A stretch of DNA of 64,000 nt from assembly GCF_000384475.1 (NCBI RefSeq), contig NZ_ARWB01000001.1, positions 3,599,039 to 3,663,038 on the forward strand, written 5' to 3'. Both the position numbers and the translations under genes were made by a program. The DNA comes from Methylopila sp. M107. Its GTDB lineage: Bacteria; Pseudomonadota; Alphaproteobacteria; Rhizobiales; Methylopilaceae. Below the pieces are notes generated by a model. The model was given only the letters and a program-made list of their open reading frames with translations. It was not told where the DNA came from and made no database searches. Below are positions 1,316 to 57,366 of the stretch, piece after piece; position 1 is the first letter of the stretch, and each line of letters opens with the position of its first letter.

Positions 1316-1459
1316 TTCCCCTCCCCCATGCGGGGAGGGGCTAGGGGTGGGGGTGGTTCAGAACGGAGCTCCTGGGGCGAAGCGGCTCTACGCCGACGCG
1401 GGGCGCTTTATCCGGAGGGACCCCCCCCCCTAACCCCTCCCCGCAAGGGGGAGGGGGAC
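1316..1459. repeat. Paired palindrome, family B copy 1
   Basis: Two inverted hairpins of the type cccctcccc-N4-5-ggggagggg, each followed inward by a taggggtggggg-like arm, flank a spacer of about 65 bp. The copy at 47497-47640 has a closely similar spacer in inverse orientation. A third copy is at 46658-46811. Confidence 0.8.
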
Positions 1460-1460
1460 A

Positions 1461-1986
1461 GCAGCGTCGCGGCGGGTTTGGAAATAGCAGTACTAGGTAT
1501 TTTGTCCTTGACATTATTCCCATCATCCCGCACGCTCCCTTCACCTCCTCCCGCCGGGAGGCGCGTCCGGACCGGCCGTTCGCGCGGGATGTGAGGGCGG
1601 CGCCTGCGCGGCTTCAGCACCGGTCTGAAGCCTCCCGGGACGTCGATCGAAGGCTTTTCGCGGCGGAAGCCGGAAGCTTTTGGCCGATGAGGTCAAGGGC
1701 GCCCGGACAACGCCAAGGAACGACGGCCGCCCGCCCTGCACTATGACGGGGCCGCCCTTCAGTGGGCCGTAACGCGGCGGGACTGGTCCGGACCCCTTTG
1801 GGAAACCGAAGGGCCAACGGGTCGCCCGACGTCGGAGCGCGGTTCCTTCGAGCGACGCAAAATCGCCGTGCGTGGGGCGCCGGGCGACCGGTTCTCTAAG
1901 TTTTAAGATGCGGCCGCCTGGCGTCCCCGCCTCCCTGTTCATCCCTCGCGCGAAAATTCGCGGCGAGGACGATGGAGGCTGTCCGG
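1461..1986 (-). repeat. 526-bp structured dispersed element, copy 1
   Basis: This stretch is repeated in inverse orientation at 46843-47369 with only scattered substitutions. It is framed by paired palindromes on both sides, as is the other copy. Read on the minus strand it can form several strong helices, including GGTCGCCCG with CGGGCGACC and a terminal arm built from ATCCCGCGC and GCGTGCGGGAT enclosing CTCCCGGCGGGAG. One frame (1541-1942) is open in both copies, but nearly all differences would change the amino acid, so I do not call a protein. A structured non-coding RNA or mobile DNA element is more likely. Confidence 0.75.
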
Positions 1987-2018
1987 GCGAGGGGAGCGAA
2001 ATCGGGCGCGACGTTTCC

Positions 2019-2174
2019 GCCCCCTCTCCCCTTGTGGGAGAGGGTTGGGGTGAGGGGTCCGGTTCGGGATAAGGCGGATCGTGCGAACGTCGAACTCTGC
2101 AGCAGATCCTGAAGCGGACCCCTCATCCGACCTCCGCTTCGCTCCGGCCGCCGTCTCCCGCAAGGGGAGAAGGG
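2019..2174. repeat. Paired palindrome, family E copy 1
   Basis: A hairpin of the type ccctctcccc-N-gggagaggg with a ttggggtgagggg arm faces a second unit ending ctcccgcaaggggag. Related modules are at 40741-40890, 47370-47485 and 62819-62961. Confidence 0.7.
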
Positions 2175-40740: not shown

Positions 40741-40890
40741 TTCCCCCTCTCCCCTCGCGGGAGAGGGTCGGGGGGGGGGGGCGCCTCAGGATTGGTCTCA
40801 GAGCGCGAGCGTCGAGTTCGATCCTGAACCGCCCCCTCATCCGACCGGCGGCTGGCGCCGCCGGCCACCTTCTCCCGCAAGGGGAGAAGG
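40741..40890. repeat. Paired palindrome, family E copy 2
   Basis: Facing hairpin units ccctctcccctcgcgggagagggt and cttctcccgcaaggggagaag lie just after ppdK, each written here in part. It fills much of the 408-bp gap before egtB; in 40891-41120 I see nothing but the egtB upstream region with AAGGGAG before its ATG. Confidence 0.7.
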
Positions 40891-46606: not shown

Positions 46607-46657
46607 GGGCTCTTGCCTTCTCCCCTCGCCGAACTTTGAAAAAGTCCGCCGCCTCCT

Positions 46658-46811
46658 GTCCCCCTCCCCCTTGCGGGGAGGGGCTAGGGGCGGGGGTGGC
46701 GCCGGATGGAGCGCCAGCGCTGAAGACGCGCTCGACGCTCGACGCTCGACGCCGAAGTCATGTTCTGAACCACCCCCACCCCTAGCCCCTCCCCGCAAGG
46801 GGGAGGGGGAC
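46658..46811. repeat. Paired palindrome, family B copy 2
   Basis: Facing cccctccccc/ggggaggggctagggg units with an unrelated spacer containing the short run cgctcgacgctcgacgctcg. It lies immediately before the second 526-bp element. Confidence 0.8.
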
Positions 46812-46842: not shown

Positions 46843-47369
46843 CCGGACAGCCTGCATCGTCCCGCCGCGAATTTTCGCGCGAGGGGATGAACAGGGAGGC
46901 GGGTACGCCAGGCGGCCGCATCTTAAAACTTAGAGAACCGGTCGCCCGGCGCCCCACGCACGGCGATTTTTCATCGCTCAAAGGAACCGCGCTCCGACGT
47001 CGGGCGACCCGTTGGCCCTTCGGTCTCCCAAAGGGGTCCGGACCAGTCCCGCCGCGTTACGGCCCACTGAAGGGCGGCCCCGTCATAGTGCAGGGCGGGC
47101 GGCCGCCGTTCCTTGGCGTTGTCCGGGCGCCCTTGACCTCATCGGCCAAAAGCTTCCGGCTCGCGCCGCGAAAAGCCCTCGATCGACGTCCCGGGAGGCT
47201 TCAGACCGGTGCTGAACCCGCGCAGGCGCCGCCCTCACATCCCGCGCGAACGGCCGGTCCGGACGCGCCTCCCGGCGGGAGGAGGTGAAGGGAGCGTGCG
47301 GGATGATGGGAATGATGTCAAGGACAAAATACCTAGTATCGCATTATCCAAACCCGCCGCGACGCTTCC
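46843..47369 (+). repeat. 526-bp structured dispersed element, copy 2
   Basis: Inverted copy of 1461-1986. Boundaries match to within a few bases: ccggacagcctgc at the left and cgccgcgacgct at the right, the latter ending in the conserved ATGTCAAGGACAAAATACC and CTAGTA region. By my alignment there are about nine differences over the shared 400-bp open frame, seven of them amino-acid changing. Sits between family B and family E palindrome pairs. Confidence 0.75.
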
Positions 47370-47485
47370 GTCCCCTTCTCCCGCTTAGCTGAGAGAAGGT
47401 AAGGATGAGGGGGCGTCAACCCGCTGAGCCCTGTCACGAAGTCCCCTCACCCTTACCCTCTCCCGCTCCGCGGGCGAGGGGGTCG
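47370..47485. repeat. Paired palindrome, family E copy 4 (divergent)
   Basis: ccccttctcccgcttagctg and its partner ccctctcccgctccgcgggcg face each other across a short spacer, abutting the end of the 526-bp element. Confidence 0.6.
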
Positions 47486-47496
47486 GAGACGTGGCC

Positions 47497-47640
47497 GTCC
47501 CCCTCCCCCTTGCGGGGAGGGGTTAGGGGTGGGGGTCCCTCAGGATAAAGCGCTCCGCGTCGGCGTAGAGCAGCTTCGCCCTCGGAGCCATGTTCTGAAC
47601 CACCCCCACCCCTAGCCCCTCCCCGCAAGGGGGAGGGGAA
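47497..47640. repeat. Paired palindrome, family B copy 3
   Basis: Inverted relative of 1316-1459, including a similar spacer, so the palindrome pair and its spacer were duplicated as one unit. Confidence 0.8.
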
Positions 47641-47666
47641 CGAGGCAGTGCGGAGAACGCGCCGCG

Positions 47667-47819
47667 AGCCCGCCCCCTCCACCGCCTTCGGCGGTCCCCC
47701 TCCCCCGCGCTCCGCGCAGGGGAGGATCCAGAGGCGTCGCGGGTCGTGCGCGGATCCTCCTCCATGCCAAAGGCATGGGGGAGGGGGACCATGCGGAGCA
47801 TGGGGGAGGGGGCGGGGCG
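47667..47819. repeat. Paired palindrome, family D copy 2
   Basis: gcccgccccctccaccgcct at the left and gggggagggggcggggcg at the right enclose two hairpins; similar to 1137-1290. Ends about 40 bp before the padR stop. Confidence 0.75.
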
Positions 47820-57290: not shown

Positions 57291-57366
57291 GGGGCCGTAG
57301 CTCAGATGGGAGAGCGCTGCAATCGCACTGCAGAGGTCAGGGGTTCGATTCCCCTCGGCTCCACCA
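57291..57366 (+). tRNA. tRNA-Ala (anticodon CGC)
   Basis: 76 nt including an encoded CCA end. Acceptor GGGGCCG pairs with CGGCTCC, the anticodon stem CTGCA/TGCAG encloses ATCGCAC with anticodon CGC (reads GCG), and the T-arm has GGGGTTCGATTCCCC. All arms are intact. Confidence 0.97.

Follow-up and report, generated by a model that had tools for sequence, protein, structure and literature searches.

HEARO RNAs are known for a repetitive habit and for their association with Y1 (IS200/IS605-type) transposases. In an excerpt of PMC9755519, the latter association is called sparse, and HEARO/omega RNA (RF02033) is a structured RNA of a few hundred nucleotides, in which it resembles the element discussed here. 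A second set of relatives in kind is formed by OLE, GOLLD, and ROOL, which according to the excerpt of PMC12286853 are large, multibranched, and covariation-supported orphan RNAs whose function is poorly understood. The mobile and repeat sequence candidates covered by the excerpt of PMC11109978 are structured motifs with multiple copies per genome that fold into a single long stem, and the REP/BIME sequences of the excerpt of PMC12306157 are short, palindromic, intergenic repeats with many copies.

The window, i.e., the whole stretch of 64,000 nucleotides of Methylopila sp. M107 (contig NZ_ARWB01000001.1) that was analysed, carries two inverted copies of one element, at 1461-1986 (+ strand) and 46843-47369 (- strand), which are 96.0% identical (507 identities, 18 mismatches, and 3 gap columns over 528 alignment columns). 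A sequence-only reading had already described a near-identical pair in opposite orientation framed by palindromes, and both observations are borne out, the palindromes at each of the two copies. The same reading suggested a structured RNA or a transposable non-coding element rather than a protein, possibly a relative of the HEARO/omega class. Here we argue that the element is very probably a stand-alone gene for a structured non-coding RNA of approximately 390 nt, encoded on the + strand at copy 1 and represented by an ancestral copy plus lineage-specific duplicates. The conserved body covers approximately 1496-1936 in copy 1 coordinates. At the 3' side, the 14 unsplit copies of the own genome lose similarity past CGCCTCCC, which ends at 1935; a tail running further downstream is possible, and copies from the genus that bears the RNA (the Methylopila/Hansschlegelia group, hereafter the genus) have no U-run after the 3' end. 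The start at 1544 is deduced from the position of the promoter. Judged by eye, the length varies from approximately 260 to 450 nt in the family. The features are as follows.

1544..1935, + strand: predicted structured RNA, copy 1 (match to search model R3 at 1544-1643, 77.1 bits; covariation; folding z -2.64)
46894..47285, - strand: predicted structured RNA, copy 2 (R3 match at 47285-47186, 72.9 bits)
1495..1507, + strand: conserved stretch (AGG, seven mostly A/T bases, TCC) just 5' of the -35 box, from the genus promoter profile
1508..1513, + strand: -35 box TTGACA (among 58 distinct long-form genus copies, 52 have TTGAC at this position)
1531..1536, + strand: -10 box CACGCT, weak save for its final T, which is found in 96% of aligned copies
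47321-47316, - strand: -35 box of copy 2
1544..1595, + strand: P1 domain, with an outer helix, a single-stranded strand, and an inner hairpin (covarying helices 1-2 of alignment A6)
1556..1563, + strand: 5' strand of the pseudoknot or closing helix, GGGAGGCG, an 8-base pairing with the 3' end
1597..1643, + strand: 5' strand of P2 (GCGGCG) and the P3 arm, the latter changed on both sides in each of its 7 pairs
1733..1752, + strand: hairpin with the conserved loop CACUAUGA, consensus [CU]AYUAYG[AG] (49 of 59 members have both motif and stem)
1864..1869, + strand: 3' strand of P2, preceded by a conserved AAA (read from the alignments)
1870..1929, + strand: terminal hairpin PT, an 18-pair helix with 95.7% of cells paired and compensation at 2 pairs
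1928..1935, + strand: 3' strand of the pseudoknot or closing helix, CGCCTCCC, pairing with the 5' strand
47273-47266 and 46901-46894, - strand: closing-helix strands of copy 2

The boxes upstream of the predicted RNA start are separated by a spacer of 17 bases, most positions of which vary across the genus copies, and they point to a predicted sigma-70-type promoter belonging to the element itself. Further upstream, the different subtypes have little in common beyond palindromic repeats. Folding strength favours the + strand as the RNA strand, with a z-score of -2.64 (1 of 100 shuffles as good) vs -1.00 for the - strand (19 of 100). Outside the genus, a CTWRTYCYC motif, unlike the TTGACA promoter of the genus, was seen by eye upstream of all 16 matches examined, many of which also have a CTTAAACTC-like box upstream.

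Compensatory change in the helices, together with this strand-biased folding, bears out the earlier proposal of a structured RNA. Alignments A2 and A3 cover 35 of the 74 genus copies, i.e., the 35 sequences to which 52 distinct ones were collapsed, six rows (three distinct copies) lacking a detected 3' end having been excluded; A6 comprises 54 matches and includes sequences from outside the genus. Across the 35 distinct genus sequences, 94.3% of the cells of the 5' domain are paired, 87 cells are doubly changed vs 36.8 in shuffles, and the P3 helix shows two-sided changes at all 7 pairs. In A6, double changes occur at 20 of 26 pairs and in 202 cells vs 52.8 in shuffles and at most 35 in slid controls, pair counts that are inflated because A6 was fitted to its own structure. 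The number of pairs with a double change, taken alone, is not above shuffles in A2 and A3 (124 and 185 of 500 shuffles, respectively, reach the observed number).

The two ends of the molecule can pair over 8 bases in all 35 genus sequences, 28 times unbulged and 7 times with a one-base bulge. The 5' strand of this pairing reads either GGGAGGCG or GGAAGGCG, with an A-U/G-C/G-U exchange at one position, and of 2100 trials with shuffled 3' tails, 318 reach an 8-base pairing (103 of them unbulged). Members from outside the genus keep the pairing with other letters, for example GAGAGGGGCGC/GCGCTCCCTCTC in L144 (by eye). Since the 5' strand sits inside P1, the end pairing would make a pseudoknot; the GGGAGG strand can alternatively pair locally within P1. 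The hairpin with the conserved loop is found with its stem in 49 of 59 members (missing in 10) vs 17 of 1180 shuffled sequences, and the middle third of the RNA is of variable length and lies outside the covariance model. Sixteen of the 22 matches from outside the genus were examined in detail (L125-L129, L144, L145, L153-L156, L158, L159, and L203-L205). The terminal hairpin was found by script in 14 of these, where that of L125 looks wrong and that of L128, missed by the script, is visible by eye, and a CAYUAYGA-like hairpin is in place in 13. The terminal hairpin, this loop, and the CTWRTYCYC motif recur in the non-genus matches though they lie outside the search model.

The window pair makes up 2 of the 24 copies that the 5'-domain covariance model finds in the same 4.45-Mb genome (the truncated L141 included). 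A genome-wide DNA search finds 15 copies (type 1) at 92-100% identity over most of their length, one being split, with weaker matches to the other subtypes. As side observations, the copy L015 (G000:C1 near 2122134-2123177) is split by an insert of approximately 1 kb with two transposase-like ORFs, which we take to be of the IS630 type, and L022 and L141 are truncated or invaded beside a GGACACTTGAAACTGCAGTA-like repeat. All 13 genomes of the genus carry the RNA, with 1-24 copies each (three genomes with one) and 74 in total. Scanning named genomes for a sequence pattern turned up 34 loci, from Hansschlegelia (four species), Methylopila, Chenggangzhangella, and Chelatococcus sambhunathii records.

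Ten genomes from outside the genus carry divergent members. Across the order, model R3 matches 20 of 397 genomes, i.e., the 13 of the genus and 7 others (18 copies); model R2 adds two further genomes near G374 and matches 2 of 385 genomes in a sample of the class, one from outside the order and the other the own genome. In the phylum sample, 2 of 398 genomes match, both of the genus. These samples were drawn evenly and scored under stricter filters, so that absence from them is soft. In G019, a weak match to model R1 was recovered together with further copies by R2 and R3; weak DNA matches in G039 and G086, from other genera of the order, were dropped, these genomes not being among those that match the models. 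The model searches found the RNA in 0 of 5 genomes of sister genera of the same family, and because of this the RNA appears dispensable at the family level. Plasmids and phages gave no match to the RNA; among viral contigs, the 5'-core scan found nothing and the loop-motif scan pointed to two contigs, neither with a model match.

Among the loci examined, 8 of the 13 genomes have a copy followed at 0.5-1.6 kb by a co-oriented DUF3617 gene (G000, at L139, and G002, G006, G007, G009, G010, G011, and G012). Another gene sits between the two in G002, and the copy at this locus is the only one in G007 and G012. The five remaining genomes include G003 and G005, where an ETF-QO gene is found upstream of a copy within a few kb, as it is in G009 and G006. 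At L074, L077, and L139 the DUF3617-type gene is a tandem pair. The shared DUF3617 locus suggests that one RNA gene seems to have been kept vertically and that the others arose as duplicates in separate lineages. The site of copy 2 is a younger shared site: it lies 3' of a cell-wall hydrolase gene (PF07486), where the RNA is found within 1.5 kb in 3 of the 13 genomes, the other ten having a different common gene 3' of the hydrolase (in one case 2.8 kb away). A possible second shared site was noticed at L073 and L076, two loci from two species with a common AI-2E-transporter-type downstream neighbour.

The copies are framed by palindromic repeats of their own kind:

1325..1460, + strand: unit A, a 136-bp palindromic intergenic repeat directly 5' of copy 1, belonging to a separate repeat family
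1986..2060, + strand: unit C, a palindromic repeat 3' of copy 1, incomplete copies of which stand at 40743 and 62821 in the window
47370..47509, - strand: unit B, a palindromic repeat 5' of copy 2
47497..47631, - strand: unit A 5' of copy 2, 92.6% identical to 1325-1460

Unit A occurs in at least 42 places of the genome at 81-100% identity, a lower bound as 40 of 174 candidates were scored. Every one of the 15 type-1 copies has a co-oriented unit A 0-173 bp on its 5' side, and 27 of the 42 places are away from type-1 copies (two of the 27 being second units at the same sites). Most type-1 copies remain homologous for approximately 460 bp 5' of the point where the query begins, a stretch that takes in a further palindromic unit, and because both this homology and unit A extend upstream, the subtype appears to have duplicated together with its upstream repeats. 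Other subtypes adjoin other repeats. The framing palindromes are thus separate genome-wide repeats and not the ends of the RNA. Units A, B, and C look like palindromic repeats of the same kind as the REP/BIME sequences in the excerpt of PMC12306157, and unit A is short, palindromic, intergenic, and present in many copies; the RNA body, in contrast, is far longer, multibranched, and promoter-borne. Mobilisation of REP sequences by a Y1 transposase was ruled out, there being none in the own genome. Around the RNA copies, palindromic repeat families were also seen as mosaics (1030-1460, 1986-2200, 46657-46811, and 47370-47800 in the window).

The alternative that survives best, improbable as we consider it, is a MITE- or REPIN-like mobile DNA element that is not autonomous: its hairpins would function at the DNA level, a transposase supplied in trans would move it, and any transcript would be incidental. 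Fifteen scattered copies at 92-100% identity would fit such an element, as would the upstream palindromic units that co-duplicate with them and genome G011, in which the genes flanking the copy 1 site are conserved and the RNA is absent. What speaks against it is that the -35 box is conserved while the spacer varies, that folding is stronger on the RNA strand, that 8 of 13 genomes share a copy at an equivalent position, and that the genome holds no Y1_Tnp gene in a search covering the Y1 family genome-wide (PF01797: 0 in the own genome, present in 5 of 14 control genomes). Of the earlier suggestion of a transposable element, the recent lineage-specific copies therefore stand; no transposase partner was found among the neighbours scanned or in the Y1 search, and the conserved DUF3617 site also counts against it. 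As to empty sites in relatives, whose inspection had been proposed, G011 lacks the RNA at the copy 1 site, and another small ORF takes its place, so that this is no clean empty site.

Neighbouring genes bear on the same question. A first scan took 20 chosen genes out of 52 listed, 15 of which have a Pfam match at E<=1e-10 with no family in common, and no transposase, integrase, HNH, nuclease, helicase, or reverse transcriptase was found among these 15; in total, 28 distinct neighbour proteins were scanned. The element shares with the mobile and repeat candidates in the excerpt of PMC11109978 a structured motif in multiple copies per genome. It differs from them in its complex fold and its conserved site, as well as in having no transposase or integrase among the scanned neighbours, the transposase-like insert inside L015 being an exception.

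A diverged HEARO/omega RNA, with an IscB-, IsrB-, or TnpB-type protein encoded elsewhere, is very unlikely. Size, pseudoknot, and multicopy habit are similar. The Rfam scans, in contrast, match the element to no family, HEARO included (the window at gathering score, copy 1 at E<=10, two loci at E<=5, and nine loci at E<=1), and otherwise give only sub-threshold matches to unrelated families. Neither does any of the 28 neighbour proteins represent the IscB/IsrB-type HNH nuclease gene expected downstream of a HEARO RNA located in its 5' UTR, or more generally an HNH, RuvC, or transposase family. With the Y1 search negative as well, the HEARO kinship put forward in the sequence-only reading is not upheld, nor did the Rfam search it had called for yield a matching family. 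The conserved promoter and the possible 5'-3' closure are features of the present RNA that set it apart from HEARO. The sole match in the window at gathering score is a tRNA gene at 57291-57363.

Equally hard to sustain is the idea that the RNA acts in cis as a regulatory leader for the gene downstream. In its favour one can cite that the nearest downstream gene is co-oriented with the RNA at 22 of 29 loci (L061-L094; two-sided binomial P 0.008), an excess partly due to the DUF3617 locus, and that DUF3617 lies downstream in eight genomes. On the other hand, the downstream genes belong to no consistent class apart from this locus and the L073/L076 pair, the RNA has its own predicted promoter and possible 5'-3' closure, and copy 2 lies between two convergent genes. 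A protein encoded by the opposite-strand frame of 133 codons (1541-1942, - strand) has next to no credibility: the frame is open in all 14 unsplit own-genome copies (over 123-142 codons of the slice checked), but these copies are near-identical, 35% of 500 shuffles yield a frame of 133 or more codons free of stops, 7 of 35 family representatives have a longest minus-strand frame of just 71-89 codons, and 7 of the 9 codons changed between the window copies are non-synonymous. We thus find no evidence of a protein there, in agreement with the sequence-only reading, which had counted about nine base and seven amino-acid changes in this frame (ten and seven on recount); covariation and strand-biased folding support the same conclusion.

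The stand-alone RNA gene is, therefore, the reading with which we continue, and among described systems the RNA is most like an orphan large RNA, although it can be assigned to none of the families tested. It has the extensive covariation-supported structure of the large ornate RNAs, in its 5' domain, terminal hairpin, and 5'-3' pairing. OLE, GOLLD, and ROOL are longer than the present RNA. None of the three is listed in the Rfam scans of the window or the loci, and the present RNA further differs from them in being alphaproteobacterial and in having many dispersed paralogues per genome. No description of it was found among the open-access papers searched, and the RNA family is apparently undescribed.

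As we picture it, the sigma-70-type promoter would drive an RNA that carries the P1 domain on its 5' side, conserved arms on a multibranched body, and a terminal hairpin; pairing of its 5' and 3' ends would shut the molecule into a pseudoknot involving P1. To judge from synteny, most of the genus would hold one ancestral copy located upstream of a DUF3617 gene, and further copies would have arisen lineage by lineage; in the own genome, the subtype of the window would have spread to 15 sites, co-duplicating with the upstream palindromic repeats. The copies would be transcribed into a stable RNA that may act in trans as a scaffold or RNP via its conserved loops, and the extra copies may either raise dosage or persist as selfish duplicates. 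Given a functional RNA, a trans-acting stable RNA or RNP and a selfish repeat that encodes an RNA and has been kept at a single useful site seem about equally likely. More tentatively, with the balance tipping slightly against it, the element may represent an undescribed class: a large, pseudoknotted, promoter-driven alphaproteobacterial RNA, of which one gene is passed on vertically and as many as two dozen paralogues are dispersed per genome, acting in trans as an RNP or as an assembly of RNA alone, with gene duplication increasing its dosage.

If true, this would mean that a bacterial structural RNA can behave as a dispersed multigene family. Large structured bacterial RNAs are often mechanistically unusual, and the occurrence of this one in named cultured bacteria, with genomes of one copy and genomes of ten to twenty-four, makes deletion and dosage experiments possible. 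It would also mean that a repeat can look like debris between genes and yet be an RNA gene under selection.
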